From Serinicoccus kebangsaanensis (GTDB lineage Bacteria; Actinomycetota; Actinomycetes; Actinomycetales; Dermatophilaceae): DNA of 64,000 nt. The translations under genes were made by a program, and so were the position numbers. Below, in pieces: positions 13,269 to 42,407 of the stretch. The first letter of the stretch is position 1; every line of letters starts with the position of its first letter. The stretch lies in contig NZ_VSLG01000008.1 of the NCBI RefSeq assembly GCF_008919445.1, positions 1 through 64,000 on the forward strand, read 5' to 3'. The notes beneath the pieces are model-generated. The model made no database searches. It worked only from the letters and a program-made list of their open reading frames with translations, and was not told the DNA's origin.

Positions 13269-13519
13269 ACCGAGCGTCGCCTGTGGTTGCCCACGACCCC
13301 ACCGGGCGTCGCCTGTGGTTGGCTGCGAGCCCACCGAGCGTCGCTTGTGGTTGGCGCGCGCCGAGGGCGGCAACCACAAGCGACGCTCGGTGCCACCTGG
13401 GACAACCACAAGCGACGCCTGGTGCCTGCTGGGGCAACCACAAGCGACGCCTGGTGCCTGCTGGGGCAACCACAAGCGACGCTCGGTGACTGCTGGGGCA
13501 ACCACAAGCGACGCTCGGT
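13269..13519. repeat. 32-bp-period repeat array, three units forward then five inverted
   Basis: This fills the 330-bp gap between the ABC ATPase start and the response regulator end. A 21-bp core with consensus ACCGAGCGTCGCYTGTGGTT(G) occurs forward at 13269, 13301 and 13333, and as its reverse complement (CAACCACAAGCGACGCTCGG) at 13371, 13403, 13435, 13467 and 13499. Every step within an orientation is exactly 32 bp: 21 bp of core plus 11 bp of variable spacer. The two blocks face each other across about 17 bp centred near 13362, so the first three inverted units can pair with the forward units as a very long hairpin. The same family recurs at 41318 and 42259. Confidence 0.9.
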
Positions 13520-13521
13520 GG

Positions 13522-14238
13522 CTATTCGGGGCGGCCGACCAGACCCGTCTCGTAGGCGGTGATCACCATCTGGACCCGGTCGCGCAGGCCGAGCTTGTGC
13601 AGCACCCGGCCGATGTGCGTCTTCACGGTCGCCTCGGCGAGGTAGAACTCGGCCGCGATCTCGCTGTTGGTCAGCCCCTTGCCGACCGCCTCGAGCACCT
13701 CACGCTCGCGGTCGGTCAGCACGTCCAGGCGGGCCGTCGCCGCACGGCGCTGCGCGGCCGCGTCCTGCCGGCCCTGCTCGTCCGGCAGGTCGGGGACGAA
13801 GCGCTCCAGCAGCCTCCGGGTGGTCGACGGTGCCATCGCGGCGTCGCCGGCGTGGACGGCGCGGATCGCCGCGAGCAGCTCGGCCGGGCCGGCGTCCTTG
13901 AGCAGGAAGCCGGACGCCCCCGCCTTGAGCGCGGCGAAGACGTACTCGTCCAGGTCGAACGTGGTGAGCACCAGCACCTTGAGCGCAGGGTCGTCCGGCG
14001 TCCGGTCCTGCAGCAGCCGACGCGTGGTCTCGACCCCGTCCATCCGGGGCATCCGGATGTCCATGAGCACGACGTCCGGTCGCGTCTGGGCGATCGCCTC
14101 CACGGCGGCCATCCCGTCGCCGGCCTCACCGACGACGCTCATGTCGTCCTGGGCGTCGAGCACCATCCGGAAGCCGGCGCGCACCAGCTCCTGGTCGTCG
14201 ACGAGGAAGAGTCGGGTGGGCTGGGAGTCGGTGGTCAT
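13522..14238 (-). CDS. NarL/FixJ-family response regulator
   Basis: A 238-aa response regulator. The receiver domain has the acidic pair in FLVDDQ, the phospho-acceptor Asp60 in VVLMDIRMPRMDG, the conserved Thr in VLVLTTFD and the Lys in GFLLKD. A Gln/Ala/Arg-rich linker leads to a C-terminal LuxR-type helix-turn-helix (LTDREREVLEAVGKGLTNSEIA, then ATVKTHIGRVLHKL), the DNA-binding half. The start overlaps the sensor kinase stop by four bases, so kinase and regulator are co-translated. The gene ends directly at the repeat array that separates it from the ABC transporter genes, which are on the same strand. Confidence 0.94.
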   Translation of the reverse strand: MTTDSQPTRLFLVDDQELVRAGFRMVLDAQDDMSVVGEAGDGMAAVEAIAQTRPDVVLMDIRMPRMDGVETTRRLLQDRTPDDPALKVLVLTTFDLDEYVFAALKAGASGFLLKDAGPAELLAAIRAVHAGDAAMAPSTTRRLLERFVPDLPDEQGRQDAAAQRRAATARLDVLTDREREVLEAVGKGLTNSEIAAEFYLAEATVKTHIGRVLHKLGLRDRVQMVITAYETGLVGRPE

Positions 14239-15557
14239 CGGTCCCCTCCAGGTGTATGCGCGGTCTCCGGACTCCCCGACGCGACGTCCAGGTGGTCGGC
14301 GGGCTCGTCGCGGGCGTCGACCGGGAAGGTCGCGACCACCTCCCAGCCCTGCCGTCGCCGCGGCCCGGCGTGCACCGTGCCGCCGAGCACCTCCACCCGC
14401 TCGCGCATCCCGAGCAGCCCGTTGCCCTCTCCGTCGGGCTCCTGGGCGAGCGCACCGCGTCCGTCGTCGGTGACCCGGACCATGAGCACCCCCGGCGTGC
14501 GGAGCACGTCGACGTCGACCGACGCGTCCGGCCCGGCGTGCTTCATCGCGTTGGTCAGCGCCTCCTGCACGACGCGGTATGCCGCCAGGTCCGCCTCGGG
14601 CGAGAGTCCGCCCACCTCGCCGCGGACGTGCGCGTCGACGTCCACGCCGGAGGCCCGGACCCGCTCGACCAGCTCGTCCAGGTGGGCCAGCCCCTGCAGC
14701 GGGGAGTACTCCGCGTCGCTCCCGGCGTCACGGAGCACGCCGACCAGCCGCCGGGTGTCGGTGAGGGAGGCGCGGGCCGTGTCCGCGAGTGTCTCCAACG
14801 TCCCTGCCGCCTGCTCCAGGGCGACCCTGGCCCGGTCCGCGTCGAGGTCGGTGCCCCGGGAGAGCGCCTGGCGCGCGGCATACAGGCCGCCGTCCGCCTG
14901 GACCACGACCACGGCGAGCGAGTGCGCCACGACGTCGTGCATCTCGCGCGCGATGCTGGCGCGCTCGTCCTGCGCGGCGAGCCGCTGCCGCTGGGCCTGG
15001 TCGCGCGCGAGGGCGCGGTTCTGCGCCTGCAGCCGGGCCACGACCTCGCGGCGCCGCCGCATGACATCGCCCAGCGCCCAGGCCACGCCGACGAAGCACG
15101 CCATGAAGACGGCCTGGATCGCCGCGACGGCGAGGTAGTAGCCCAGGCCGCCGTAGATCGAGCCGGCCCAGTCGAGCGCGGCGATCAGCGCTCCCGCCAG
15201 CCCCAGCCCCAGGACCAGCCGGGAGGTGGTGCGGTTGCCGAAGGCCGCCGCGCTGTAGACCGCGATGAGCACGGCGACGTTGGCCGGGACCGGGGAGTCG
15301 ACGAGGAGCACCTGGATCAGGCACCCCGCGGCGATGACGAGCGCCACCGGTAGGGGGTGGCTGCGGCGCCACAGCAGCGGGACGACCAGCAGCAGGCTGA
15401 CGAGGGTGAGCGGGAGCGTCCCGGCACCGACCCCGGTCACCAGCAGGAGGAAGAGGAGCACCGCCACGAGCAGCGCGTCGGGGAGCCAGCTGACGCCCCG
15501 CGCGCGGCTCCACACCTCCGAGGCCTGCTGACGCACGGCCTGCACCCACTCGTTCAC
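14235..15557 (-). CDS. sensor histidine kinase (DesK/NarX-like, HisKA_3)
   Basis: A 440-aa membrane kinase. Residues 25-165 hold about five or six hydrophobic segments with only short loops, so it senses within or near the membrane. A coiled linker (RRREVVARLQAQNRALARDQ) precedes the phospho-acceptor motif IAREMHDVVAHSLAVVVVQA, with His207. The C-terminal ATPase has an N-box-like EALTNAMKHAG, VTDDGRG and GLLGMRERVEVLGG. Start is GTG 15557: an ACCCTA at 15564-15569 (TAGGGT on the coding strand) lies six bases upstream, the leaderless geometry common in this window. It forms an operon with the response regulator. Confidence 0.93.
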   Translation of the reverse strand: MNEWVQAVRQQASEVWSRARGVSWLPDALLVAVLLFLLLVTGVGAGTLPLTLVSLLLVVPLLWRRSHPLPVALVIAAGCLIQVLLVDSPVPANVAVLIAVYSAAAFGNRTTSRLVLGLGLAGALIAALDWAGSIYGGLGYYLAVAAIQAVFMACFVGVAWALGDVMRRRREVVARLQAQNRALARDQAQRQRLAAQDERASIAREMHDVVAHSLAVVVVQADGGLYAARQALSRGTDLDADRARVALEQAAGTLETLADTARASLTDTRRLVGVLRDAGSDAEYSPLQGLAHLDELVERVRASGVDVDAHVRGEVGGLSPEADLAAYRVVQEALTNAMKHAGPDASVDVDVLRTPGVLMVRVTDDGRGALAQEPDGEGNGLLGMRERVEVLGGTVHAGPRRRQGWEVVATFPVDARDEPADHLDVASGSPETAHTPGGDR

Positions 15558-15563
15558 GTGGCG

Positions 15564-15569
15564 ACCCTA
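15564..15569 (-). promoter_or_regulatory. -10 element of the leaderless kinase gene
   Basis: TAGGGT on the minus strand, six bases before GTG 15557. Transcription would start at or next to the start codon, giving an mRNA without a 5' leader. Confidence 0.6.
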
Positions 15570-15612
15570 GACGTTCGGCGGCCAGGGGCGCGTCATACCA
15601 GGGTCGCGTGCT

Positions 15613-15637
15613 GGTCCGCCCACGGTGGGACCGGACC
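15613..15637 (-). terminator. possible terminator after hutI
   Basis: GGTCCG at 15613-15618 pairs with CGGACC at 15632-15637, with a further CCA/TGG pairing inside. It lies directly after the hutI stop. Imperfect and without a T-tract. Confidence 0.35.
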
Positions 15638-16852
15638 TCAGACCTCCAGGGCTCGCACGATCGGCACCCCGACGCGGTAGGGGATGTGCAGGAAGCTGGG
15701 CGCGTCCACGACGGCCAGGTCCGCCCGCTGCCCGACCCGGATCCGCCCGAGATCGTCGCGGCGCAGCGCCCGGGCCCCGCCGACGGTCGCCGCACGCAGT
15801 GCCTGCGCCGGGGTCATCCCCATCTCGCGCACGGCGAGCGCGATCATCAGCGGCATCGAGGAGGAGTTGCAGGTCCCGGGGTTGCAGTCGCTGGCCAGGG
15901 CCACCGAGACCCCGGCGTCCAGGAGACGCCGGGCGTCCGGGTAGGGCTGCCGGGTGGAGAACTCCACACCCGGCAGCAGCGTCGCGACCGTGTCGCTCCC
16001 GGCGAGCGCGGCCACGTCGTCGTCGGAGAGGAAGGTGCAGTGGTCCACGCTGGCCGCGCCGAGCTCGACCGCCAGCTGCACACCGGGGCCGTGCGACAGC
16101 TGGTTGCCGTGCACCCGCAGCTCCAGCCCGGCGGCACGTCCGGCCTCGAGCACCCGCCGCGACTCCTCACCGTCGAAGGCGTGCGCGCTGGCCGGCTCGC
16201 AGAAGACGTCGATCCACCGCGCATACGGGGCACAGGCGTCGAGCATCTCGCCGCACACGAGGTCGAGGTATGCCGCGCGCCCGCCAGCCTGCCTCGCGTC
16301 GGGTGGCACGACGTGGGCTCCGAGGAAGGTGGTCTCGGTGGTGACCTCGCGCGCCAGCCGCAGGGCGCGGACCTCGTGCTCCACGTCCAGGCCGTAGCCG
16401 CTCTTGATCTCGACGGTGGTCGTGCCCTGTGCCCGCATCTCGCCCACTCGGGCGGCGATGAGCGCGCGCAGCTCCGCGTCGCCCGCCTCCCGCGTGGCGG
16501 CCATGGTCACCGCGATGCCACCGCCGTCGTAGGGCTGGCCGGTCATGCGGGCGGCGAACTCGGCGGAGCGGTCCCCGGCGAAGACCAGGTGGGAGTGGCT
16601 GTCCACGAAGCCCGGCAGGACCGCCCGGCCCCCGATATCGATCGACCAGTCCGCGTCCGGCGCCTCGCCGGCAGGCCCGAGCCACTCCACCACGGGGGCC
16701 GAGTCCTCGCCGCCACCACCGATGACGACGGCGGCGTCGCCCACGACGCCCAGGCCCCGGGTCAGGTCCCCCGCACCGGACGGCGCCGCCCGGTCCTCGA
16801 GCGCGTCGTCGCAGGTGACCAGCTCGCTGATGCCGGTGATGAGCATGCTCAT
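15638..16852 (-). CDS. hutI: imidazolonepropionase HutI
   Basis: Hydrolyses 4-imidazolone-5-propionate to N-formimidoyl-L-glutamate, the third step of histidine degradation. The 404-aa product is an amidohydrolase-superfamily enzyme: metal motif [15 protein letters not shown], the HutI-typical [37 protein letters not shown] and the late ASDCNPGTC segment. Start is the ATG at 16852 with GAGAGGA about eight bases upstream; two further in-frame Met codons follow closely. It is the last gene of the minus-strand hut region, downstream of hutF but separated from it by a lipoprotein gene. The upstream steps are encoded by hutH and hutU further along the same strand. Confidence 0.95.
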
Positions 16853-16909
16853 GGGCCTGATCCTCTCGTGTCCTCGGTCAGCCGGGCCGGGTGGCGTCTG
16901 CGGGCACCC

Positions 16910-17686
16910 TCACGGAGCCCAGACGACGGGTGCCTCGTAGTACGGGTTGGCCTCCCAGTCGCCGTCGCCGTCGGCGTTGTCGTTGCCGCCCCACGCCGCC
17001 CCGGTGATCTCCATCCCGGCGTCCGCGAGGGCGACCACGCAGGTGCGCGCGGTGCCGCCGGCCTCCATGCTGTCGAACTCGTCGTTGGTGCACTCGCCGA
17101 TGTCCGCACCGTCAGCCCACACCGTCATCGCGGCAGAGCCGTCCCCGTGGACGGCGCCGAGCTCGGGATACAGGTCCAGCTTCTCGTAGTCGCCGTCGGT
17201 GTCGACGATCTCGTGCTCCGCCCAGACGAGGTAGGGCACCTCGTCCTCGACCGGCGTCGCGAGCTCGATCCCGTCCAGGATGCCCGGGTCCGCCTCGGTG
17301 ATCTCGGTGACGGTCGTGCGCAACCTGAGGTAGCGGTAGTAGTCGTCCTGCGGGTCTGCGACGCTCGCCACCTGGATGACGGCCGGATCACCGAGGGCGA
17401 GCTCCGTGCCGGGAGCCGTCAGCTCGGTGGAGCCACCCTCCGCACCGTCCTCGCCGGCCTCGGTCTCCTCCGCGCCGTCGTCCTCTGTCGTCTCCTCCGC
17501 GCCGTCGTCCTCCGTCGGCTCCTCCGCGGTGTCGTCCTCGGTCGCGGTGTCGTCCTCCGTGGGCGTCGTCTCCTCCACGGCACCGGTCTGCTCCGGTGCA
17601 GCCTCGTCCTCGCCGCACGCGGCCAGGCTCAGGGCCACCCCCAGCGCCACGGCCGCCGTCGCCGTGCGTCGCGTGTTCCTCATCAT
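16910..17686 (-). CDS. acidic lipoprotein of unknown function
   Basis: A 258-aa predicted lipoprotein. The N-terminus RNTRRTATAAVALGVALSLAACG has a basic start, hydrophobic core and lipobox LAAC, so it should be anchored outside the membrane. A low-complexity, very acidic stretch with repeats of EEPTEDD/GAEETTEDD follows (roughly residues 30-85), then a folded domain with two Cys residues, CTNDEFDS and a C-terminal GGNDNADGDGDWEANPYY. Start is ATG 17686, since AGGAG lies seven bases upstream; a longer in-frame start exists but would bury the signal peptide. It sits between hutF and hutI on the same strand. Whether it binds a substrate of the pathway or is an unrelated insertion cannot be told from sequence. 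Confidence 0.85.
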   Translation of the reverse strand: MMRNTRRTATAAVALGVALSLAACGEDEAAPEQTGAVEETTPTEDDTATEDDTAEEPTEDDGAEETTEDDGAEETEAGEDGAEGGSTELTAPGTELALGDPAVIQVASVADPQDDYYRYLRLRTTVTEITEADPGILDGIELATPVEDEVPYLVWAEHEIVDTDGDYEKLDLYPELGAVHGDGSAAMTVWADGADIGECTNDEFDSMEAGGTARTCVVALADAGMEITGAAWGGNDNADGDGDWEANPYYEAPVVWAP

Positions 17687-17781
17687 GCTCTCTCTCCTGT
17701 TCCGGCCCGGACGGGCCACCTGGGCGGGCTCGACCACCCCCCTCGGTGATCCAGCCTGTCACGCGGCATCACCCCCCGTCG

Positions 17782-19125
17782 TCAGCCCAAGGACTCATCC
17801 TGGTGGGGTCTTAAGGCCCGGGCGAGCAGCGTCCCCACGTCGCCCAGCCGGTGCACCCCACCCTCCACGACGGTGCGACCGTCGACGAGGACCGTGTCGA
17901 CGTCGGCCGCCGTCGCGCTCAGCAGGATCTGCGCGGGGTCGGTGCCCGCGGTGCGGACGGTGTCCGTCCGGACGGCCACGAGGTCGGCGCGCGCACCCAC
18001 GGCGATCCGGCCGGCGTCCGGCCAGCCGATGCTGTCGTGCGCGGTCGCGGCGGCGAGCAGGTCGAGAGGCCGCAGCCGCCCACGCTCCAGGCTCGCCAGC
18101 CGCTCGTGCATCTCCAGCGCCCGCGCCTCCTCGACCAGGTCGATGACGGCGTGCTGGTCCGAGCCGAGCGAGAGCCGCGCCCCGGCGTCGCGCAGCGCCC
18201 GGGCCGGGCCGATGCCGTCGGCCAGGTCCCGCTCGGTGGTGGGGCAGAAGCAGGCGTGCGACCGGTGCCGGCCGAGCAGCGCGACGTCCGCCTCGGTGAG
18301 GTGGGTGGCGTGCACGGCGGACAGCTCCGGTCCGAGCACCCCCTCCTGCTCGAGCAGGCCGGTCGGTGTCAGGCCGTGGGCGGCGAGGCAGGCGTCGTTC
18401 TCCGCCGGTTGCTCGGAGAGGTGGACGTGGAGCGGTCGCGTCCCGGCCCACCCTGCGACCGTGGCGAGCTGGTCGCGCGGCACGGCGCGGACCGAGTGGA
18501 TCGCGGCGCCGACCCGGACGTGGGCGGGACCGCCGTCGGTGTGGTCGCGCAGGTCGTCCACCCGCAGGGCCCAGGCCTCGGCGTCCAGGTCGCCGAACCG
18601 CAGCTGCGTCCCCTCCAGCGGGGTGTGCCCGTCCGGCCCGAGCCCGCCGGCGAGGTAGCAGGTGTCCAGCAGGGTGAGCCGGATGCCGGCGTCGGCCGCG
18701 GCGTGGACCAGGGCCTGCCCCATCGCGTTGGGGTCCATGTAGCGCCGAGCCCCCGGGGCGTGGTGCAGGTAGTGGAACTCCCCCACCGCGGTGATCCCGG
18801 CGAGCGCCATCTCGGCGTAGGTCGCCCGGGCCAGCGCCAGGTAGCGGTCCGGGTCGAGGCGGGCGGCCACGGCATACATCGCCTCGCGCCAGGTCCAGAA
18901 GGTCCCGCCGCCGCCGTGCGTCCGCCCACGCAGCGCCCGGTGGAAGGCGTGGCTGTGCGCGTTCGCCAGTCCGGGGAGGACGACGCCGGGGAGGCGGTGG
19001 TCCCCGCCGTCGGCCGGTATGCCCTCCTCCACCGCGGTGATCCGGCCGTCGGCGACGCTGATGCGCACGTCGGCGGCCACGCCGGTGGGCAGGTGGGCGT
19101 GCGCGGCGTGGAAGGTCGTGCTCAC
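17782..19125 (-). CDS. hutF: formimidoylglutamate deiminase HutF
   Basis: Converts N-formimidoyl-L-glutamate to N-formyl-L-glutamate plus ammonia. The 447-aa amidohydrolase-superfamily protein has the metal-binding GLANAHSHAFHRALRGRT segment near residue 55, LHVHLSEQPAENDAC, a HATHL segment, CPTTERDLADGIGPA and LGSDQHAVIDLVEEARALEMHER, all characteristic of HutF rather than the related HutI. The start is GTG 19125, four bases inside the M20 gene stop (GTGA), showing translational coupling with that amidohydrolase. Its presence defines the deiminase branch of the pathway, which needs an N-formylglutamate hydrolase next. Confidence 0.94.
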   Translation of the reverse strand: MSTTFHAAHAHLPTGVAADVRISVADGRITAVEEGIPADGGDHRLPGVVLPGLANAHSHAFHRALRGRTHGGGGTFWTWREAMYAVAARLDPDRYLALARATYAEMALAGITAVGEFHYLHHAPGARRYMDPNAMGQALVHAAADAGIRLTLLDTCYLAGGLGPDGHTPLEGTQLRFGDLDAEAWALRVDDLRDHTDGGPAHVRVGAAIHSVRAVPRDQLATVAGWAGTRPLHVHLSEQPAENDACLAAHGLTPTGLLEQEGVLGPELSAVHATHLTEADVALLGRHRSHACFCPTTERDLADGIGPARALRDAGARLSLGSDQHAVIDLVEEARALEMHERLASLERGRLRPLDLLAAATAHDSIGWPDAGRIAVGARADLVAVRTDTVRTAGTDPAQILLSATAADVDTVLVDGRTVVEGGVHRLGDVGTLLARALRPHQDESLG

Positions 19126-20375
19126 GGCTGGTCGGCCACCAGGTCGGTGAGGCAGGCCGCGAGCGCCTCGACCCCGGCGTGGCAGTCCTGCGTCTCGGCG
19201 TGCTCCACCGGGTTGTGCGAGATCCCGGTGGGGTTGCGCACGAAGAGCATGGCCGTGGGGATCCCGGCACCGGAGAGGATCCCGGCGTCGTGCCCGGCCC
19301 CGGTGCCCAGGACGGGCACGCTGAGCTCGTCGGTGCTGCCCAGGACGCGGCGCAACCGGTCGGCCAGGTCGGTGTCGAAGCGGGTGGTGGGGGTCCACGA
19401 CTCCCGGGTGACGGTGGCGCCGTGCTGCTGCACCCGCGTCTCGAGGTCGTCGACGAGGGCCCGGACCTGTCCCTCGTCGGTGCCACGGGTGTCCAGCCAG
19501 CCGGTGACGTGCGACGGGATGGCGTTGATGCCGCCGGGGGTGACCGCGACCTTGCCGACGGTGGCGACGCAGCCCCGCTCGGCGGCGCCCGCCCGGGCGG
19601 CGAGCACCAGGTCGGCGTAGCCGAGCATCGCGTCCTTCCGGTCCTCCAGACGCGTGGTGCCGGCGTGGTTGGCCTCGCCGGGGAAGTCGAAGCGCCACCG
19701 TCCGTGCGGCCAGATGTCGCTGGCGACGGCGACCGGTGCACCCAGGTCCACCAGCGCGCGACCCTGCTCGACGTGCAGCTCGACGAAGCAGCCCACGCGG
19801 GCGAGGGTCTCCTCGTCCCGGCCCAGCGCCTGCGGGTCGCGCCCGGCCGCGGCGAAGGCGTCGGCATACGTCACGCCGTCGCCGTCGGTGAGTGCCCGTG
19901 CCCGGTCCGCGTCCAGCGCGCCGGTGAGCACGCGGGACCCGGCGCAGGCGATCCCGAACCGGGCGCCCTCCTCGTCGATGAAGTGGGTCACGGCGATCGG
20001 CCGGCCCGGCACCACGCCGCTCGCCCGCAGCGCGTCGACCGCGGCGAACGAGCTCACCACCCCCAGCGGTCCGTCGAAGGCGCCGCCGTCCGGCACGGAG
20101 TCCAGGTGGGAGCCGATGGCGACCCCGGTATGCCCCGCCCGCACCGCGTCGTCGACGGTTCCGGGACCGTCCCACCACCAGGCCCACTGGTTGCCGACCC
20201 GGTCCTCGACGAGGTCGAGCCCGCGGGCGGCCGCCTCCCCGGCGAACCACTCGCGCAGCGCGGCGTCCTCGCGCGTCCACACGAAGCGGCGGTACCCGCC
20301 GCTGGCGACTCGGCCGACGGGGCCGAGGTCGGCCCACATCCGGTCGAAGCTGGCGAGGCTGGCGGCGGTGCTCAC
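19122..20375 (-). CDS. M20-family amidohydrolase (AllC-like), likely N-formylglutamate hydrolase of the hut pathway
   Basis: A 417-aa zinc amidohydrolase of the allantoate amidohydrolase/N-carbamoylase group. Metal ligands are visible: SHLDSVPDGGAFDGPLG, HFIDEEGARFG, ELHVEQG, and the late GAGHDAGIL and SHNPVEH; the dimer-domain segment ANHAGTTRLEDRKDA is also intact. Automatic annotation would name it allantoate amidohydrolase, but it overlaps hutF by four bases and no ureide genes are nearby. HutF makes N-formylglutamate and no classical hutG is in the cluster, so deformylation of that product is the likely job; this is inference. Start is GTG 20375 rather than GTG 20381, because TAGAGT (20383-20388, minus strand) lies seven bases before 20375. 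Confidence 0.85.
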   Translation of the reverse strand: MSTAASLASFDRMWADLGPVGRVASGGYRRFVWTREDAALREWFAGEAAARGLDLVEDRVGNQWAWWWDGPGTVDDAVRAGHTGVAIGSHLDSVPDGGAFDGPLGVVSSFAAVDALRASGVVPGRPIAVTHFIDEEGARFGIACAGSRVLTGALDADRARALTDGDGVTYADAFAAAGRDPQALGRDEETLARVGCFVELHVEQGRALVDLGAPVAVASDIWPHGRWRFDFPGEANHAGTTRLEDRKDAMLGYADLVLAARAGAAERGCVATVGKVAVTPGGINAIPSHVTGWLDTRGTDEGQVRALVDDLETRVQQHGATVTRESWTPTTRFDTDLADRLRRVLGSTDELSVPVLGTGAGHDAGILSGAGIPTAMLFVRNPTGISHNPVEHAETQDCHAGVEALAACLTDLVADQP

Positions 20376-20382
20376 GCCCACG

Positions 20383-20388
20383 ACTCTA
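20383..20388 (-). promoter_or_regulatory. -10 element of the leaderless M20-hutF operon
   Basis: TAGAGT on the minus strand, seven bases before GTG 20375. It decides between two in-frame GTG starts. Confidence 0.55.
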
Positions 20389-20451
20389 GGTCGCGGGTGG
20401 TCCGAGCCGCAGGTGCCGGGCCGGCTTCCTCGTCTCGGATCCCAGACGGCT

Positions 20452-20457
20452 TAGCCT
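20452..20457 (+). promoter_or_regulatory. -10 element of leaderless ybaK
   Basis: TAGCCT followed by six bases and ATG 20464. Confidence 0.6.
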
Positions 20458-20463
20458 GAGCGC

Positions 20464-20931
20464 ATGAGCGAGGAACGAGCCGTCGCGGCTCTCCAGGCGG
20501 CCGGCGTGGAGTATGCCCTCACGCGTCACGGACGGGTCGGCAGCCTGGAGGAGGCGGCCCGGGTGCGCGGCGTCGAGCCGCGCGACATCGTCAAGACGCT
20601 CGTGGTGCGACGGGGCGAGGACGACTACCTCTTCGTGCTGGTCCCGGGCGACCGGGAGATCGCCTGGCCCAAGCTCCGGTCGCTGCTCGGCGTCAGCAGG
20701 CTCTCGATGCCGGATGCCGCCACGGCCAAGGAGGCCACCGGCTACGAGCGCGGCACCATCACGCCGTTCGGCTCGACCCGTGCCTGGCCGGTGGTCGCCG
20801 ACGCCTCGCTGGGCGCCGAGCCCGGGCGGCGCATCTCGCTCGGCGCGGGCGCGCACGGGGTCGCGGTCACGGTGGAGGCCGACGCGGCGCTCGGTGCGCT
20901 GGACGCTCTGGTCGCCGACGTCACCGGCTGA
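20464..20931 (+). CDS. ybaK: YbaK/EbsC-family aminoacyl-tRNA deacylase
   Basis: A 155-aa single-domain editing protein of the YbaK/ProX superfamily, which hydrolyses misacylated tRNA such as Cys-tRNA(Pro). Family features visible are the N-terminal SLEEAARVRGVEPRDIVKTLVV with the conserved Lys, LFVLVPGDREIAWPKL, TGYERGTITPFGS and ISLGAGAHGVAVTV. Length matches free-standing members of the family. It is a lone plus-strand gene inserted among the minus-strand hut genes, with its own leaderless promoter. Whether it edits Cys-tRNA(Pro), Ala-tRNA(Pro) or another species is not decidable from sequence. Confidence 0.88.
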   Translation: MSEERAVAALQAAGVEYALTRHGRVGSLEEAARVRGVEPRDIVKTLVVRRGEDDYLFVLVPGDREIAWPKLRSLLGVSRLSMPDAATAKEATGYERGTITPFGSTRAWPVVADASLGAEPGRRISLGAGAHGVAVTVEADAALGALDALVADVTG

Positions 20932-20948
20932 CCGAGCCCCGACGGCGC

Positions 20949-21244
20949 TCACCGGGTGAGGTCGGAGAGCCGGAAGGACACCTCGAACGGCTCGCGCACC
21001 TCGAAGGTCGCCTCGCCCATGACGACCTCGCCCGATTCGTCGGCGTCACCCACGAGACGGTAGACGCGGATCCCCGGCGTCTGGGGGTCCACGACCCAGT
21101 AGTGCCGGCACCCGAACCGGGCAAGCACGTCCGGCTTGGCGACGAGGTCGGTCCGACGGCTGGAGGGGGAGAGGATCTCGACCGCCAGCACCGGCGGGAC
21201 TAGAACGTGTAGATGCCGACCTCGGGCATGCTCATGCTCTCCAT
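20949..21244 (-). pseudogene. Uma2-family (DUF820) endonuclease, internally deleted
   Basis: Two pieces of one gene are joined out of frame. A strong ribosome binding site (GGGGGAGGGG) precedes ATG 21244, which opens MESMSMPEVGIYTF and then hits TAG at 21200-21202. In another frame, immediately after, the C-terminal half of a Uma2 protein continues to 20949: PPVLAVEILSPSSRRTDLVAKP, then GCRHYWVVDPQTPGIRVYRL and a final beta-rich tail. MPEVGIYT is a typical Uma2 N-terminus, so about 60-90 residues between the two pieces are missing. The remaining half keeps the Glu and Asp of the PD-(D/E)XK-like core but lacks the N-terminal strands, so it is probably dead. Confidence 0.75.
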
Positions 21245-21314
21245 CGTGCCCCTCCCCCGCCATGACGTCCAGCATGGCGGGCCCGGCAGGAACCCTGCCG
21301 GAGCTGTCTACAGG

Positions 21315-21734: not shown

Positions 21735-21740
21735 GGGCCG

Positions 21741-21746
21741 AACGTA
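21741..21746 (-). promoter_or_regulatory. -10 element of the leaderless PPOX gene
   Basis: TACGTT on the minus strand, six bases before ATG 21734. Confidence 0.55.
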
Positions 21747-33942: not shown

Positions 33943-33951
33943 GGTGTGTGT

Positions 33952-33996: not shown

Positions 33997-34160
33997 TGCA
34001 GGGCAGGGTCGGCGCGGGCTGATGGGGGGCTGCCCACGCGACTCACACGATCCCTGCGTCGGCCGGAGCCGACCCCTCCACAGTGACACATCGAGCGATG
34101 GATGTCACGTCGCGGGGTGTCGGGGTGCTGCCAATGGCGGGGATCCGTCAGACTGTCCCG

Positions 34161-35177: not shown

Positions 35178-35187
35178 GCCCCGGACG

Positions 35188-35193
35188 ATAGAC
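35188..35193 (+). promoter_or_regulatory. likely -10 element for helD
   Basis: TAGACT ten bases after the upstream regulator stop. Initiation about seven bases later would place the start of the mRNA right at the hairpin at 35201. No recognisable -35 element. Confidence 0.5.
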
Positions 35194-35200
35194 TGCGGAC

Positions 35201-35231
35201 TTTGCGGGGGTCCGACGTGACCGCCCCCGCA
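35201..35231 (+). promoter_or_regulatory. hairpin at the 5' end of the helD leader
   Basis: TTGCGGGGG (35201-35209) pairs perfectly with CCCCCGCAA (35223-35231) around a 13-base loop. It would form the extreme 5' end of the helD mRNA, followed by a 30-nt spacer with the ribosome binding site. It may protect the mRNA, act in attenuation, or terminate transcripts from upstream. Confidence 0.5.
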
Positions 35232-35263
35232 ACAGCCGTCAGGACCAGATGGAAGGCAGGCGG

Positions 35264-37510
35264 ATGACGGATCTGGTGTCGACCGACCGTGAGGTCGCGG
35301 CCGAGATCGCCGCTGAGCAGGCGCACGTGGACCGGGTCTACGACGAGCTGGGGAAGGCCGCCGCGCGGGTGGAGCTGGTGCACGCCGAGGGGATGGCCCG
35401 GGGGCAGACGGACCGTAGGGGCACCGGGGACCCTCGGGAGGAGGAGCTCGCCGGGCTGTTCGAGCGGGACGCCCTGGTCTACTCCGCCAGCAAGCGCCGG
35501 GCGTCGCTGGAGCACCAGCACGACGGGCTCGTCTTCGGCCGCCTCGACCTCGCGCACGAGGTCGCGGACGAGCACGGCTCGACCCGTGAGGTGCGCTACG
35601 TCGGGCGGCTCGGGGTGCGCGACGACGACTACGAGCCCTTGGTCGTCGACTGGCGCGCTCCCGCAGCCGCGCCCTTCTACCGCGCGACCCCGGTCGACCC
35701 GCAGGGGGTGCTGCGGCGCCGGGTGCTCCGGTGCCGGGGGGAGCAGGTCGTCGGGGTGGAGGACGACCTCATGGTGGCCGAGCCACCCGACGACGTGGTC
35801 GTCGTGGGGGACGGCGCGCTCATGGCCGCCCTGACCCGCAGCCGCGGTGCCCGGATGCGCGACATCGTCGCGACCATCCAGCACCACCAGGACGAGGCGA
35901 TCCGGGCTCCCGCCCGCGGGATCACCGAGATCACCGGCGGCCCGGGCACCGGCAAGACCGTGGTCGCGCTGCACCGCGCCGCCTACCTGCTCTACTCCGA
36001 CCGGCGCCGGTTCGAGGGCGGCGGCGTCCTCGTGGTCGGCCCGTCCGCCGCCTACACGGCATACATCGAGCGGGTGCTGCCCTCGCTCGGCGAGGACTCG
36101 GTGGTGCTGCGCTCCCTCGGTGACGTGCTGGCCGGGATCACCGCCACCCGGCTCGACCCGCCTGCCGTCGCCGCCACCAAGGGGAGCCTGCGGATCCGGC
36201 GGCTGCTGGCCCGGCTGGTGCGCGAGCCGATCCCCGGCGCGCCGCAGCAGCTACGCGTCTTCGTCGGCGGGCACGCGATCCGCCTGGACGCCCCCGCCCT
36301 GGACCGCGCGCGCGGCCAGGTGCTGCGGCACCACCACCGCAACGCCGGCTACGACGCCGCTGTGGAGGCGCTGGCCCACCTCGCGTGGGAGCAGGTCGAG
36401 CAGGGCGAGCGCGAGGAGTTCGTCGACCGGTTCACCGACTCCGGCGACGTGGAGGCCTTCATGCGGCAGTGGTGGGCCCCGGTCGACCCGCGCGAGATGC
36501 TGCTGTGGCTGGCCGACGAGGAGCTCGTGGCCCGGCTCGGTGGGCTGGACGCCGAGGCCGTCGCCGCGCTCGCCCGGTCCTACCGCGAGGCGCTGGAGCT
36601 GGGCACGTGGACCGTGGCGGACGTCGCGCTCGTGGACGACCTGACGGCGAGGCTCGGCCCTCCCGTGGAGCTGCCGAGCGAGGACCGCGGCTTCTTCGAG
36701 ATCGAGGAGCTGGACGACGTCTCGCAGTACGGCGTCTCCGCGCTCCGGGTGGGCCAGGACGGCGAGCCGGAGCGTGCCGCGGCCGGTGGCGAGGCCGGGC
36801 ACCGGGTGGCGACCGACCCGCGCGACCGGTTGCTCGCGGGGCGGGTCGTCGAGGCCGAGGAGTATGCCCACGTGCTGGTGGACGAGGCCCAGGACCTCTC
36901 CCCGATGCAGTGGCGGATGCTCGGTCGTCGGGGTCGCTGGGCGTCCTGGACCGTCGTCGGCGACCTGGCCCAGGCCTCCTGGGACGATCTCGCGGAGGCG
37001 GCCCAGGCGAGGGACGAGGCCTTCGGCACCGCCCCCCGCCAGGCGTTCCACATGGACACCAACTACCGCAACGCCCGCGAGATCTTCGACCTCGCCGCCC
37101 GGGTGATCACCGAGCACGTGCCCGAGGCGGACATCCCGGACGCCGTCCGCGAGACCGGGCACCACCCGCGGGAGCTCTCGGTGCCCACCGCCACGCTGCC
37201 CGACGCGGTGGCCGTGACGCTGGCGGAGCTGCGCGAGGAGGTCGCCGGCCAGGTGGCCGTCATCGCACCGTGGTCCTGGCACGAGCGGCTGGCCCCGCAC
37301 GTGCGGGGCGACCAGGTGGTGCTCATCGACCCGCTGTCCACCAAGGGGCTGGAGTACGACGCCACGGTCGTGGTCGATCCCGATGCCGTCGTTGCCGAGT
37401 CCCCGGGCGGGGTCCGGGCCCTCTACGTCGTGCTCACCAGGGCGGCCCACCGCAGCGCGATCCTGCGCCCTGTGGACGAGGCCTCCTCCGATGTCGCCGG
37501 GGGCCGTTAG
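35264..37510 (+). CDS. helD: HelD-like RNA-polymerase-recycling ATPase (class II)
   Basis: A 748-aa UvrD-like ATPase of the HelD family, which binds RNA polymerase, pushes an arm into the secondary channel and clears stalled complexes. The N-terminal 60 residues are helical (EVAAEIAAEQAHVDRVYDELGKAAARVELVHAEGM), fitting the coiled-coil arm. YVGRLGVRDDDYEPLVVDWRAPAAAPFY marks the family, Walker A GGPGTGKT ends at Lys231-Thr232, motif II is HVLVDEAQDLSPMQW, and VVGDLAQAS, MDTNYRN and LIDPLSTKGLEYDATVVVDP follow. Related HelR proteins confer rifamycin tolerance, but I see no clear rifamycin-associated element here. Start ATG 35264 follows GGAAGGCAGG; an ATG at 35249 is an alternative. The stop codon overlaps the dnaX -10 element. 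Confidence 0.88.
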   Translation: MTDLVSTDREVAAEIAAEQAHVDRVYDELGKAAARVELVHAEGMARGQTDRRGTGDPREEELAGLFERDALVYSASKRRASLEHQHDGLVFGRLDLAHEVADEHGSTREVRYVGRLGVRDDDYEPLVVDWRAPAAAPFYRATPVDPQGVLRRRVLRCRGEQVVGVEDDLMVAEPPDDVVVVGDGALMAALTRSRGARMRDIVATIQHHQDEAIRAPARGITEITGGPGTGKTVVALHRAAYLLYSDRRRFEGGGVLVVGPSAAYTAYIERVLPSLGEDSVVLRSLGDVLAGITATRLDPPAVAATKGSLRIRRLLARLVREPIPGAPQQLRVFVGGHAIRLDAPALDRARGQVLRHHHRNAGYDAAVEALAHLAWEQVEQGEREEFVDRFTDSGDVEAFMRQWWAPVDPREMLLWLADEELVARLGGLDAEAVAALARSYREALELGTWTVADVALVDDLTARLGPPVELPSEDRGFFEIEELDDVSQYGVSALRVGQDGEPERAAAGGEAGHRVATDPRDRLLAGRVVEAEEYAHVLVDEAQDLSPMQWRMLGRRGRWASWTVVGDLAQASWDDLAEAAQARDEAFGTAPRQAFHMDTNYRNAREIFDLAARVITEHVPEADIPDAVRETGHHPRELSVPTATLPDAVAVTLAELREEVAGQVAVIAPWSWHERLAPHVRGDQVVLIDPLSTKGLEYDATVVVDPDAVVAESPGGVRALYVVLTRAAHRSAILRPVDEASSDVAGGR

Positions 37511-37513
37511 GGT
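37508..37513 (+). promoter_or_regulatory. -10 element of leaderless dnaX, overlapping the helD stop
   Basis: TAGGGT, of which TAG is the helD stop codon, followed by seven bases and GTG 37521. It also decides the dnaX start, since longer in-frame openings run back into helD. Confidence 0.6.
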
Positions 37514-37520
37514 CACTGTC

Positions 37521-39821
37521 GTGAGCACCGCCCTGTACCGCCGCTACCGACCCGAGTCCTTCGCCGACGTCATCGGTCAGGAGCACGTCACCGAGCCGCT
37601 CATGCAGGCGCTGCGCGCGGAGCGGGTCAACCACGCCTATCTCTTCTCCGGCCCGCGCGGGTGCGGCAAGACCACCAGCGCCCGCATCCTCGCCCGGTGC
37701 CTGAACTGCGACCAGGGGCCGACCCCGGAGCCGTGCGGCAGCTGCGAGTCGTGCGTCGCCCTGGCGCGCGACGGTGCCGGCTCGGTCGACGTCATCGAGA
37801 TCGACGCCGCCAGCCACGGCCGGGTCGACGACACCCGTGAGCTGCGGGAGCGGGCGGCCTTCGGGCCGGCCACGGCGCGCTACAAGATCTACATCATCGA
37901 CGAGGCCCACATGGTCAGCCGGGAGGGCTTCAACTCCCTGCTCAAGATCGTCGAGGAGCCCCCGCCGCACGTGAAGTTCATCTTCGCCACGACGGAGCCG
38001 GAGAAGGTGCTGGCGACCATCCGCTCCCGGACCCACCACTACCCCTTCCACCTGGTCCCGCCACAGCGGCTCACGGCATACCTCGAGCAGCTGTGCCAGA
38101 CCGAGGGCGTGGCGCTGGAGCCCGGGGTGCTGTCCTTCGTGACCCGCGCGGGCGGGGGGTCGGTCCGGGACTCGCTGTCGGTGCTCGACCAGCTGATCTC
38201 CGGTGCCGCCGAGGGCGGCCTGACCTACGAGCGCACCGCCGCCCTGCTGGGCTTCACCGACGTCGAGCTGCTGGATGCCGTGGTCGAGGGCGTGGCCGCG
38301 CGGGACGCCGCGACCGTCTTCGAGCAGATCGACCGGGTGATGGAGTCGGGGCACGACCCGCGCCGGTTCGTCGAGGACCTGCTGGAGCGCTACCGCGACC
38401 TCATCGTCCTCGCGGCCGCGGGCGACCGGGCCGGCGGCCTGCTGCCCGGCCTGCCCGAGGACCAGGTGGAGCGGATGCGCCGCCAGGCGCAGGGTTACGG
38501 CTCCGCGGGGCTCTCCCGGGCCGGCGACCTGGTCAGCCGCGGCCTGTCCGACATGACCGGCGCGGTGTCCTACCGGCTGATGCTGGAGCTGCTCGCGGCC
38601 CGGCTGCTGCTGCCGGCGGCCCAGGGCGAGGACGGCTTCGGCACCCGGCTGGACCGGATCGAGCGCAGGCTGGGCGCGGGCGGGTCGGCGGAGCGGGAGG
38701 CCGCCCCGCCGAGGTCGAGGTCCGCCGCGGCGCCGGCCGAGGTCCCGCAGGAGGAGTCGACCCCGCCGCCGGCCCCCACCCAGCAGGAGGAGCCGGCCCC
38801 GCAGCCCGCCGACACCCAGCAGCCGGGCCAGCTCGACACCGCTGCCGTGCGGCGCCAGTGGCCGGAGATCATCGCCGCGGTCCGACAGATCAGCCGCCGC
38901 ACCGCCGGGGCGCTGGAGTCCATCCAGGTCGTCGACTACGACGGACGACGGCTGCTGGTCGGTATGCCCGACGAACGGTGGGTCCGTCACTTCATGGGGA
39001 CCTCCAACGAGGAGGCGCTGCGCCAGGGCGTGCTGGACGCGCTGGCCCTGGACACCACGATCGAGGCGACCGTCCTCGGTGGCGATGGCGACGGCGGGCC
39101 GGGCCCTGGCCCGGGTGGTGGTCCAGGGCCGTCGGGTCCGGAGCACTCCGGCCCGGGGCCGTCGGGAGGCGGCCCGGGGCCGTCGGGCGCGGGGTCTGCT
39201 GCGGGCCCTGAGTCCGGGGCAGCCCCTGGGACAGGGGCACACCCCGAGCCGGCAGATCCTGACCCCGGCGCGGATCCCGGGCCGGAGGACGAGCCCGCGC
39301 CGCCCGAGGCGAGCGGGGGCATACCGGAGCAGGTGCCGGACGAGCCGATGCGCGGCCGCATCCGCACCCGGGCCGGCCAGGCGGCGCCCTCGGGCGAGCA
39401 GTCGGCAGCGGCACCGGTGCGGGTGCGGGGTCGTCGCGGCGGCGCCACCGCCCCGCCGGCCGCCGACGAGGCGGGGTCGTCCGGCCCCGAGACGTCGCTC
39501 GCCGAGCAGCTGGGGGCGACGCCGGGTCGCGCCACCGACCGGGGCGACGAGGCTGAGTGGTCGACGCGGGCGTCCGGTGCGGGCGCACCCGCCTGGGCCA
39601 CCGAGGACGTCGCCCCCCAGCCCGACCGACCGCCGGAGGACACCGCCGCAGCCTCGCCCCCGGAGCAGCCCTCGGCCGCGCCGGCCCAGCGCGCTCCTGG
39701 TGGCGACGCCCCGAGCGACGACGACGAGGACCTCGCGACCTCCGGCACGGTGGGGCAGCCGGTGGTCGAGAACGTCCTGGGCGGTACTGTCATCGCCATC
39801 AACGACGATCCCGTGGCGTGA
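37521..39821 (+). CDS. dnaX: DNA polymerase III subunits gamma and tau DnaX
   Basis: The clamp-loader ATPase and organiser of the replicative polymerase. The 766-aa protein starts [22 protein letters not shown]; Walker A is [10 protein letters not shown] with Lys50, the zinc module is the four-Cys cluster at about residues 60-80, and Walker B with sensor is [26 protein letters not shown]. The DnaX core runs to about residue 370. The rest is a very long, Pro/Gly/Ala/Glu-rich tail with repeated GPGPSGG-like units (about residues 510-560), interrupted by a short conserved block ([20 protein letters not shown]...EALRQGV), the tau domain III-V-like polymerase-binding part. No slippery frameshift signal is evident. 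Confidence 0.95.
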
Positions 39822-39834
39822 GGACGGCCCGAGC

Positions 39835-40509
39835 ATGATCTACGAGCTGCTCCATCCCGTGGTGACGCCGCTCGCCACCGCGATCTGGCGCCCGGAGGTG
39901 CTCGGCCGGGAGAACGTCCCCATGGACGGCCCGGTGGTCCTCGCGAGCAACCACCGGTCGTTCATCGACAGCCTGGTCATCCCGCTGACCGCCCCGCGGC
40001 AGGTGGCCTTCCTGGCCAAGTCGGAGTACTTCACCGGCACCGGGGTGCGCGGCTGGATCAGCCGCGAGTGGTTCACCGGCGTCGGCTCCATCCCGGTCGA
40101 CCGGGACGACACCCGCGCCGCGCAGAAGTCGCTGGACCTCGCGCTCGCCCACCTGCGCGGTGGAGGGGCGTTCGGCATCTACCCGGAGGGGACCCGCTCC
40201 CGCGACGGGCGGCTCTACCGCGGCAAGACCGGGGTGGCCTGGCTCGCGCTGGAGGCCGGGTGCCCGATCGTCCCCGTCGGGCTGCAGGGCACCCAGGACA
40301 TCCAGCCGGTCGGCTCACGCCTTCCCCGGCGCGCCAAGGTGCGCGTCGAGTTCGGCGAGCCGATCGAGGTCGTCGGCCGGTTCGACGGCGTGCCGCAGGG
40401 TCGGGCCCGTCGCGAGCTGACCGACGAGGTCATGGAGCGCATCCTGGCGATGTCCGGCCAGGAATGGGCCGGGGAGTATGCCCAGCGCTCCGGCGACGCT
40501 CCGGCCTGA
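39835..40509 (+). CDS. plsC: 1-acyl-sn-glycerol-3-phosphate acyltransferase (PlsC family)
   Basis: Transfers a second acyl chain onto lysophosphatidate on the cytoplasmic face of the membrane. The 224-aa product has motif I NHRSFID (His40-x4-Asp45), motif II region [10 protein letters not shown], motif [16 protein letters not shown] and motif [13 protein letters not shown], so all four acyltransferase blocks are present. A hydrophobic N-terminal stretch ([13 protein letters not shown]) may associate with the membrane. It starts 13 bases after the dnaX stop and is probably in the same transcript; the ATG 39835 has only a weak GAGG upstream. Several paralogues are usual in actinobacteria, so the specific acceptor is uncertain. 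Confidence 0.92.
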
Positions 40510-40527
40510 GCGCGAGCCTCAGCGCCC

Positions 40528-40636
40528 CGTCATCTGGCATCCCTTCCTCGTCTGAGAGCCCCTTCGTCACCTGGCAGCCCCCTCGAGCAGGCTGTCAGTG
40601 GGCGTTCCCGGCTGTCAGTCGACCTCCGGGCTGTGC
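40528..40636. repeat. degenerate short-unit array with opposed halves, plsC-recR gap
   Basis: Three related units on one side (CTGGCATCCC near 40532, CTGAGAGCCC near 40552, CTGGCAGCCC near 40571) face three near-complements on the other (AGGCTGTCAG near 40589, CGGCTGTCAG near 40609, GGGCTGTGCG near 40628), each block with a spacing of about 17-21 bp. CACCTGGCAGCC can pair with GGCTGTCAGTG as a hairpin. It resembles the better-kept arrays elsewhere in layout but not in sequence. Confidence 0.5.
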
Positions 40637-40679
40637 GCCGACCTGGCGTGCCGGGACCGCCGCTGTCGGCGGCACGGCA

Positions 40680-40685
40680 TACAGT
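40680..40685 (+). promoter_or_regulatory. -10 element of leaderless recR
   Basis: TACAGT followed by eight bases and GTG 40694, the start of the protein VYEGVVQDL. Confidence 0.55.
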
Positions 40686-40693
40686 GCCGTGTT

Positions 40694-41308
40694 GTGTATG
40701 AAGGCGTGGTCCAGGACCTGATCGACGAGCTCGGACGGCTCCCCGGTGTCGGCCCCAAGGGCGCCCAGCGGATGGCCTTCCACCTGCTCGCCGCGGACCC
40801 GGAGGACATCACCCGGCTCGCCGAGGCGCTGCTGCAGATCCGCGAGAAGGTCCGCTTCTGCGAGGTCTGCGGCAACGTCGCCGAGGCGGAACGGTGCCGC
40901 ATCTGCCTGGACGACCGCCGAGACCCCAGCATGATCTGCGTCGTGGAGCAGAGCCAGGACGTCGCGGCGATCGAGCGCACCCGCGAGTTCCGTGGCCGCT
41001 ACCACGTGCTCGGCGGCGCCATCAACCCGATCGGTGGCGTCGGCCCGGAGGACCTGCGGGTGCGCGAGCTCGTGGCCCGGCTGGCCGACGGCGAGGTGGC
41101 CGAGGTGATCATCGCGACCGACCCCAACCTGGAGGGAGAGGCCACCGCGACCTACCTCGCGCGGCTGCTGGCCCCCTACGACGGCGTCCGGGTCAGCCGG
41201 CTCGCGTCCGGGCTCCCCGTCGGCGGCGACCTGGAGTATGCCGACGAGGTCACCCTCGGACGCGCCTTCGAGGGTCGCCGGATGATCTCCACCGGTCCGA
41301 CCGGCTGA
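40694..41308 (+). CDS. recR: recombination mediator protein RecR
   Basis: RecR works with RecO (and RecF) to load RecA on single-stranded gaps. The 204-aa product has the helix-hairpin-helix [22 protein letters not shown], the zinc finger with Cys56, Cys59, Cys68 and Cys71, the Toprim segment [17 protein letters not shown]...YHVLGG, and the C-terminal [23 protein letters not shown]. Length is standard. The usual family start MYEGVVQDL corresponds to GTG 40694, which also has a -10 element eight bases upstream; an in-frame opening 32 codons longer is not supported. Its position after dnaX matches many bacteria, here with plsC between. Confidence 0.95.
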
Positions 41309-41317
41309 CCCGACCCC

Positions 41318-41650
41318 ACCGGGCGTCGCCCGTGGTTGCCCCCAACCCCACCGAGCGTCGCCCGTGGTTGCGCCCAGCCCCACCGAGCGTCGCCCGTGGT
41401 TACCCCCAACCCCACCGAGCGCCGCCTGTGGTTACCCCCAGCCCCACCGAGCGTCGCCCGTGGTTACCCCCAACCCCACCGAGCGTCGCCCGTGGTTACC
41501 CCCAACCCCACCGAGCGTCGCCCGTGGTTACCCCCAACCCCACCGAGCGCCGCCTGTGGTTACCCCAACCCCACCGAGCGTCGCCCGTGGTTGCGCCCAG
41601 CCCCACCGGGCGTCGCCTGTGGTTGCTCTCCCATCCCACCGGGTCGTCGC
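41318..41650 (+). repeat. 32-bp-period repeat array, at least ten units, single orientation
   Basis: This occupies the 384-bp gap between recR and the DUF5063 gene. The core ACCGAGCGTCGCCCGTGGTT occurs at 41318, 41350, 41382, 41414, 41446, 41478, 41510, 41542, 41573 and 41605, with a decayed eleventh at 41638. Spacing is 32 bp throughout except one 31-bp step. Spacers are about 11 bp of C-rich sequence (ACCCCCAACCCC and variants). Unit substitutions are mainly GTC to GCC and CC to CT within the core. Same family as 13269 and 42259. Confidence 0.92.
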
Positions 41651-41680
41651 TCGGTCCGGGTGTGTGACCCGATTTGCCCG

Positions 41681-41686
41681 TAGGGT
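41681..41686 (+). promoter_or_regulatory. -10 element of the leaderless DUF5063 gene
   Basis: TAGGGT followed by six bases and ATG 41693, directly downstream of the repeat array. Confidence 0.6.
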
Positions 41687-41692
41687 GGGGGC

Positions 41693-42256
41693 ATGGTCGA
41701 TGACGACTGGGCCCAGCCGGCCCAGGACATGCACGCCGAGGTGGCGGCCTACTTCACCAGCCTCGAGGAGGTGGCCTCCGGGGGCGCGGCGGAGACAGCG
41801 TTGCCGCTGCTGCTGCTGAGCGTGGGCCAGCTCTGCTCGGCCGGCGCCCGACTGGGTGCGTTGGTGGACGTGGTGCCGCGGGAGCGGTTCGAACCGGATG
41901 CCGGCCCGGACGCCGACCTGGAACGGATCCGGGAGAGCCTGCACGGACTGCTGGGCGGCCTGGACGACTACTGCGACCTGGAGGACCCGGTGATCACCGG
42001 CGAGGTCACCCGCGGATCACTCACCGACGACCTCGTCGCCGTGGCCGCCGACCTCGCGCACGGCCAGGAGCACTACCTCGCGGGTCGTCCGACCGAGGCG
42101 ATGTGGTGGTGGCAGTTCAGCTACCTCTCGTCCTGGGGCGAGCGCGCCGCCTCGGCGCTGCGCGTGCTGCATACCCTCCTCGCGCACGTGCGCCTCGACG
42201 CCGACGACGAAGAGGTCATGGAGGCCGAGCTCGCCGCCCTTCACGGCACGACCTGA
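41693..42256 (+). CDS. DUF5063-domain protein
   Basis: A 187-aa soluble, mostly helical, acidic protein of the DUF5063 family, which in many actinobacteria lies next to recR. Recognisable parts are the N-terminal QDMHAEVAAYFTSLEEVASG, ALPLLLLSVGQLCSAGARLGALVDVVP, the acidic middle LDDYCDLEDP and the C-terminal EAMWWWQFSYLSSWGERAASALRVLHTLL. The function is not known. What is special is the setting: array units in the forward orientation stand upstream (41318-41650) and units of the same family in inverted orientation follow directly after the stop (42259-42407). It is transcribed from its own leaderless promoter just after the upstream array. Confidence 0.88.
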   Translation: MVDDDWAQPAQDMHAEVAAYFTSLEEVASGGAAETALPLLLLSVGQLCSAGARLGALVDVVPRERFEPDAGPDADLERIRESLHGLLGGLDDYCDLEDPVITGEVTRGSLTDDLVAVAADLAHGQEHYLAGRPTEAMWWWQFSYLSSWGERAASALRVLHTLLAHVRLDADDEEVMEAELAALHGTT

Positions 42257-42258
42257 GG

Positions 42259-42407
42259 CCACCACAAGCGACGCCCGGTCGCCTCAGGGACAACCACACG
42301 CGACGCCCGGTCGCCTCAGGGACAACCACACGCGACGCTCGGTGGGCTCAAGAGCAACCACACGCGACGCTCGGTGGGGTCAGGGACGACCACAGGCGAC
42401 GCCCGGT
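42259..42407 (-). repeat. 32-bp-period repeat array, five inverted units
   Basis: The inverted core (CAACCACACGCGACGCTCGG and variants) starts at 42259, 42291, 42323, 42355 and 42387, exactly 32 bp apart. It fills the 155 bp between the convergent DUF5063 and mnhG genes, whose stop codons lie within five bases of its ends. Spacers are of the type CGCCTCAGGGA. Confidence 0.92.

Follow-up and report, generated by a model that had tools for sequence, protein, structure and literature searches.

The stretch analyzed here (the window) comprises the first 64,000 nucleotides of contig NZ_VSLG01000008.1 of Serinicoccus kebangsaanensis and contains, at the ends of several genes including recR, arrays of a 21-bp core repeated every 32 bp (Table 1). 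The sequence-only reading had described this core at three loci, as 3 forward plus 5 inverted, 10 forward and 5 inverted copies, with one 31-bp exception to the 32-bp step. These observations were recovered: 23 matches were found in the window with 20 bp of the full core at up to 3 mismatches, against 0.04 expected from 100 dinucleotide-preserving shuffles, and a period of 32 was assigned to all four blocks by Tandem Repeats Finder. Only the extent given for the second array (41318-41650) had to be shortened: its 10 forward units are present, but they end before that limit and the remainder is only a degenerate partial unit. The three-locus observation is correct, and the family is far larger than three loci.

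Table 1. Repeat blocks and neighboring genes in the window (positions on the 64,000-nucleotide stretch).
Feature	Positions	Strand	Pfam family or basis
ABC transporter ATPase gene, downstream of the 13269 array	12429-13190	-	PF00005
Forward block, 3 units, 32-bp steps	13269-13352	+	
17-bp junction between forward and inverted block (start-to-start 38 bp; L164)	13354-13370		
Inverted block, 5 units; starts 2 nt past the response regulator stop codon (L164)	13372-13519	-	
LuxR-type response regulator gene, array at its 3' end	13522-14238	-	PF00072, PF00196
recR; stop codon 9 nt before the array start	40598-41308	+	
Forward block, 10 units; single 31-bp step (41542 to 41573)	41318-41624	+	
Partial degenerate unit closing the forward block	41625-41650	+	by eye
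DUF5063 protein gene, array on either side	41693-42256	+	PF16702
Inverted block, 5 units; fills the gap between convergent stop codons	42260-42407	-	
MnhG-like Na+/H+ antiporter subunit gene; array 4 nt past its stop codon	42412-42750	-	

Two short imperfect tandem repeats, of 19 and 20 bp, were also seen immediately upstream of recR (40528-40634).

Scale, range and unit anatomy of the family

The search of the genome and its relatives for the core at 32-bp spacing, which the sequence-only reading had called for, showed some 210 copies in the genome of the window (G000, 3.50 Mb): 206 matches when 2 mismatches were allowed, where a reversed control pattern gave 9. A total of 209 units were placed in 56 blocks, within 36 stretches around the core places and at about 44 gene junctions. 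Since these stretches contain 203 of the 213 single cores of the genome (up to 2 mismatches), few arrays can have been overlooked. Pairs of cores spaced at 32 bp occurred in 10 of the 31 genus genomes, 10 of 186 genomes of the family and one of its 53 genera, with none in the 155 family genomes outside the genus. In a class-wide sample of 394 genomes, from which other species of the genus were absent, such pairs were detected only in G000.

Single cores, counted at the same threshold in the 31 genomes of the genus, numbered 360 in G011, 213 in G000, 177 in G028, 168 in G030, 155 in G018, 136 in G029, 115 in G022, 54 in G004, 47 in G012, 18 in G007 and 12 in G017, with 0-5 in the other 20 genomes; a control pattern gave 0-5 per genome. 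The DUF5063 protein was 89-100% identical to that of the window in G000, G007, G011, G012, G018, G022, G028, G029 and G030, 76% in G004, 75% in G017, and 82% in G002, which has no array. RecR of 'Uncultured Serinicoccus sp. 2B2-67' shares 98% identity with the RecR of the window, and the recR junction there resembles that of G029, in keeping with Serinicoccus, family Ornithinimicrobiaceae. A strand bias along the G011 chromosome was set aside as a probable artefact, as the match list seemingly kept the forward matches but, of the reverse ones, only those of highest coordinate.

Occurrence of the core elsewhere without fixed spacing, which the earlier reading had named as evidence against a functional period, was not observed; the step was kept in other species. 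Steps of 32 bp made up 151 of 153 in G000 (the others being one of 31 and one of 33 bp), 128 of 139 in G011, 72 of 82 in G028 and 33 of 35 in G022, and 23 of the 25 remaining steps in these four species were of 31 or 33 bp. The core consensus of the four species was ACCGRGCGYCGC-NNR-TGGTTG. The information per site was 1.7-1.8 bits at core positions 1-12, 0.7-1.5 in the triplet at positions 13-15, 1.7-2.0 at positions 16-21, and 0.6-0.8 at spacer positions 22-29, in agreement with the earlier remark that the core is kept while the spacer of about 11 bp drifts.

Spacers were 67-84% identical within an array and 50-57% identical between arrays, and this difference indicates that arrays grow locally. 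The earlier rejection of CRISPR was also upheld, since the spacers within an array are near-copies and not unique. The core triplet was species-typical, being NYG in 47 of 53 G000 blocks, AGA in 42 of 51 G011 blocks, and GAA or GAG in 17 of 28 G028 blocks and 14 of 25 G022 blocks. Between G000 and G011 it differs genome-wide at the same loci, as expected if the sites follow a changing protein.

Helical phase, placement and conservation

Neighboring blocks on opposite strands and at most 200 bp apart faced each other in 33 of 34 cases, the single tail-out pair lying at 36 bp. Among the 27 close facing pairs (start-to-start distance up to 45 bp, a cut set after the data had been seen), 15 were at 26-29 bp, 12 at 37-38 bp and none at 30-36 bp, and equal phasing was reached in 0 of 100,000 uniform simulations. 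These two classes lie one helical turn apart, which is what a protein on one helix face predicts. The junction sequences of the close pairs were unrelated to one another by eye, and the class may differ at orthologous loci (26 bp at L147 and 38 bp at L214; 37 bp at L157 and 26 bp at L205).

Genes were called with a small codon-based finder written for the analysis, which may miss or misplace genes. Only 2 of 57 blocks in G000 and 5 of 56 in G011 fell inside called genes. In the stretches of the four species, 104 convergent junctions were counted, 49 of them with arrays, along with 328 tandem junctions (70 with arrays) and 136 divergent ones (12 with arrays; convergent versus divergent, Fisher p = 2e-11); these rates are relative, because junctions without arrays were counted from 20 nt up and the stretches had been chosen for their arrays. 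Within tandem junctions the arrays lay at a median of 12 nt from the stop codon and 66.5 nt from the next gene; the stop codon was at most 15 nt away for 39 of 70, and the next gene for 6 of 70. Moreover, 27 of the 36 G000 sense blocks start at most 15 nt past a stop codon, and in 7 of the 36 the A of a TGA stop codon is also the first letter of the first unit. No functional theme was recognized among the neighbors, as the 38 flanking or nearby proteins compared with Pfam, drawn from part of the array flanks in sets of 8 and 30, were ordinary metabolic, transport and regulatory proteins (2 of the set of 30 without a match).

Orthologous junctions were defined from reciprocal best proteins between species. 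Arrays occurred in both species at 61 junction pairs. Orientation agreed in 36 and was opposite in 3 of the 39 pairs that were single-oriented on each side; another 16 pairs had both orientations on both sides and 6 had both on one side. At least one of the three relatives shared 28 of the 44 G000 array junctions, where chance sharing was estimated at one or two per cent (44 junctions, roughly 3000 genes). Array junctions of the relatives were also arrayed in G000 in 14 of 22 cases for G022, 13 of 25 for G028 and 15 of 40 for G011, the others being empty in G000 or lying beyond its stretches. At L149/L211 a shared 125-bp segment (86% identical) lies between the two blocks in both species, and the arrays there were therefore inherited and not re-inserted.

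Spacer identity was 0.524 for orthologous and 0.522 for non-orthologous arrays; at four-fold degenerate sites identity was 0.58-0.63, against 0.45-0.46 at random. The constant core positions were 99% identical across orthologous arrays, a value that is inflated because the core served to find the units, while the persistence of findable arrays and the 32-bp step are not inflated in this way. The copy number of the arrays varied among species, and certain loci were gained or lost.

Candidate explanations

The phase, the period, the conserved loci, the free spacers and the genome-wide difference in the core triplet make a DNA-binding protein along the arrays the simplest account. Our leading explanation, still a tentative one, is that the arrays are binding sites for a protein along one DNA face at gene ends, most likely forming a roadblock or an insulator. 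Each 21-bp core would be the site of a sequence-specific double-stranded-DNA-binding protein of the clade, and the 32-bp step, equal to three turns, would place the proteins on one helix face, where neighbors could touch and binding might be cooperative. Close tail-to-tail arrays, with junctions of 26-29 or 37-38 bp, would preserve that face. Judging from the placement, such an assembly at gene 3' ends, chiefly between convergent genes, would most likely be a protein roadblock or topological insulator by which transcription from adjoining genes is halted or kept separate. A more elaborate version is possible but less likely: a gene-end chromatin in which a fast-evolving DNA-binding protein of Serinicoccus-like actinobacteria polymerizes on phased 32-bp arrays, its target triplet having shifted concertedly across dozens of conserved loci per species.

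The spreading nucleoid or silencing protein suggested by the sequence-only reading may still be involved, but none came to light, and divergent junctions, which are those with promoters, seldom carry arrays; a gene-end role therefore fits better than silencing. The earlier idea of a protein in helical phase gained from the junction classes one turn apart and from the 32-bp step kept over randomized spacers. No binding protein was found, no systematic search for one having been made.

Several further results weigh against a bound protein with a gene-end role. The limit that defines the close pairs was chosen after the fact, and six wider facing pairs lie at 70, 103, 125, 146, 146 and 178 bp, with only the one at 70 bp in phase at 10.5 bp per turn. 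The conservation of the core is in part a detection effect, as the core itself was used to find the units, and the terminal spacer positions 30-32 are also informative (1.1-1.5 bits). Orientation in tandem junctions is mixed, with 34 sense-only, 19 antisense-only, 16 forward-inverted and 1 forward-inverted-forward arrays; since it does not strictly follow transcription, a polar terminator is unlikely. RNA hairpins at gene ends with sense arrays were only slightly weaker than at ends without them (median -20.4 kcal/mol, n = 94, versus -22.2 kcal/mol, n = 251; p = 0.03), and arrays as a replacement for hairpin terminators were discarded on account of this weak difference.

In addition, the recR and mnhG arrays were absent in 15 other species (16 of 30 loci scanned), apart from single degenerate units: G022 has one with 2 mismatches, and G028 and G030 have a 4-mismatch match each. 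No single array can thus be indispensable. The locus at 13269 had no counterpart among the stretches retrieved, and conservation is not demonstrated for any of the window's own arrays. The lack of conservation in close relatives, which the earlier reading had taken as a sign against function, is therefore true of the recR and mnhG loci and false for the family.

A possible, somewhat less favored explanation is a dispersed repeat without benefit to the host, similar to the repetitive extragenic palindromic sequences (REPs) or the mycobacterial interspersed repetitive units (MIRUs). An enzyme recognizing the core would copy or amplify the units; next to stop codons these would be tolerated, pass down by vertical descent and multiply by slippage, and the phase would arise from the way in which the enzyme makes pairs, for example as a dimer needing a given face. 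It follows closely behind the binding protein because the published placement of REPs is the same: in the part of the source available, REPs are reported at convergent and unidirectional junctions, mostly less than 20 bp from 3' ends (PMC3733652). REPs and the bacterial interspersed mosaic elements (BIMEs) built from them, in super-families such as GTAG and CGTC, are likewise dispersed, intergenic and numerous, and form inverted pairs near 3' ends and at convergent junctions (PMC3733652, in part); BIMEs and REPs have also been described as protein-binding sites (PMC2817692, in part).

The family is indeed a short (20-40 bp) dispersed extragenic repeat, with nearly all of its copies outside called genes and a preference for 3' ends and convergent junctions, and its tail-to-tail array pairs resemble REP dimers. 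The variable copy number, the gain and loss of loci and the intergenic niche common to other tandem families also suit this explanation, and the species-specific core subtypes could reflect a changing master copy. However, the 32-bp family consists mostly of head-to-tail tandem arrays with a fixed step, while most REP families have few head-tail dimers or none, as far as the consulted part of PMC3733652 goes. It also keeps no stem pairing across units and shows no conserved imperfect palindrome forming a stem-loop.

The RAYT transposase, which accompanies REPs of the GTAG families, was rejected as a mobilizer, since its Y1 domain (PF01797) was found in 0 of the 31 genus genomes and in 5 of 14 control genomes; other mobilizers were not searched. 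A phage, plasmid or viral origin was also rejected, because the recR array had no match in plasmid and phage collections and the paired core none in viral contigs. Moreover, the difference in spacer likeness within and between arrays argues against recent array-to-array copying that included spacers, and arrays have persisted over randomized spacers at the shared junctions.

Among actinobacterial tandem repeats, the MIRU and other variable-number tandem repeats of Mycobacterium tuberculosis are the nearest likeness, with 41 MIRU locations, 12 of them variable in copy number (PMC2734929, in part). Their units, of 40-100 bp, are longer; neither a clade-wide core conserved at orthologous junctions nor phased inverted pairs are mentioned in the part of that source available. 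The TAACTGA direct repeats of marine Beggiatoaceae are also abundant, short and intergenic within one bacterial group, but they are heptamers and not 32-bp units, and a post-transcriptional role was proposed for them (PMC4679880, in part). No title among the literature matches listed describes the 32-bp core family, and the available part of the RepRanger main text (PMC12306157) makes no mention of Serinicoccus or Ornithinimicrobium. Since 32 is not a multiple of 3, no reading frame is kept through an array. The arrangement of the MIRU unit, which carries a small open reading frame in frame with its neighbors, does not apply here. MIRU insertion at TGA stop codons was reportedly described by Supply et al. 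in 1997.

An RNA element of the 3' untranslated region, such as a C-rich Rho-loading site, a stability element or a protein-binding RNA motif, is improbable. It would suit the sense blocks that start just past stop codons, the composition of the sense-strand spacers (59% C, 18% G) and the excess of sense-only over antisense-only arrays in tandem junctions (p = 0.053). A typical G000 unit can form two 5-bp stems (-8.0 kcal/mol), and three-unit RNAs folded with a mean z of -1.11 in G000 (45 blocks), but of +0.56 in G011 (38 blocks). No covariation was found within the unit at 8 candidate position pairs in the four species: outside the invariant GC core, positions 5-13 were paired in 23% (22% expected) and positions 4-14 in 44% (43% expected). 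Complementarity between the last forward and first inverted units was at shuffle level in each species (p = 0.37, 0.74, 0.08 and 1.0; n = 10, 10, 4 and 4). An RNA hairpin in the unit or over the forward/inverted junction was accordingly rejected, and the transcript with repeated RNA motifs put forward by the sequence-only reading was not supported.

The window gave no Rfam match at gathering score, and a known RNA family was discarded, the six weak matches (five to miRNA or lncRNA families and one to FMN) each lying below the cut-off. Antisense-only arrays and phased inverted junctions are left unexplained by an RNA model. As no hairpin is preserved between units, the usual RNA explanations are weak.

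A DNA uptake or recombination sequence marking the DNA of its own species, with the species-specific core as label, is very improbable: the core subtype is common to most loci of a genome, and the inverted pairing at gene ends is seen in Neisseria uptake sequences as well, but known uptake sequences occur in more than a thousand copies, far above the roughly 44 clustered junctions here, and neither the 32-bp tandem period nor the helical phasing is needed for uptake.

Other tandem repeats and biological meaning

Other tandem families were observed. A second one, CGACCGGCCGCACGGTNTGCGT, with an exact 22-bp step (two turns), lies at 63174-63261 (-) of the window, at 4831-4918 of L132 and at 1925-2034 of L142; two-unit matches numbered 46 in G000 and 38 in G007, with 0 in the other 29 genus genomes, and some of them start with TGACCGG, as if from a stop codon. 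A 38-bp tandem repeat (3.3 copies; window 58586-58710) exactly fills the gap between convergent genes at 57957-58586 (+) and 58711-59142 (-), as called. Arrays of other sequence with a 22-bp period were found outside called genes in G028 (L250, 5438-5603 and 5667-5767; L257, 2133-2368; L244, 3806-3870), which suggests that gene ends carry several repeat families whose periods are close to a whole number of helical turns. In G011 a tandem repeat with a 52-bp unit and about 10 copies lies likewise outside called genes (L225, 7495-7997).

The position of REP-like repeats at gene ends is a long-standing open question. The phased geometry of the 32-bp arrays, the conservation of their loci over randomized spacers and their species-typical core make the idea of a protein on DNA directly testable. 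If it is true, the in-step change of the core triplet would be a natural record of protein-DNA co-evolution, and dozens of conserved array sites would make up a boundary system for bacterial gene ends, in which a co-evolving specificity is visible.

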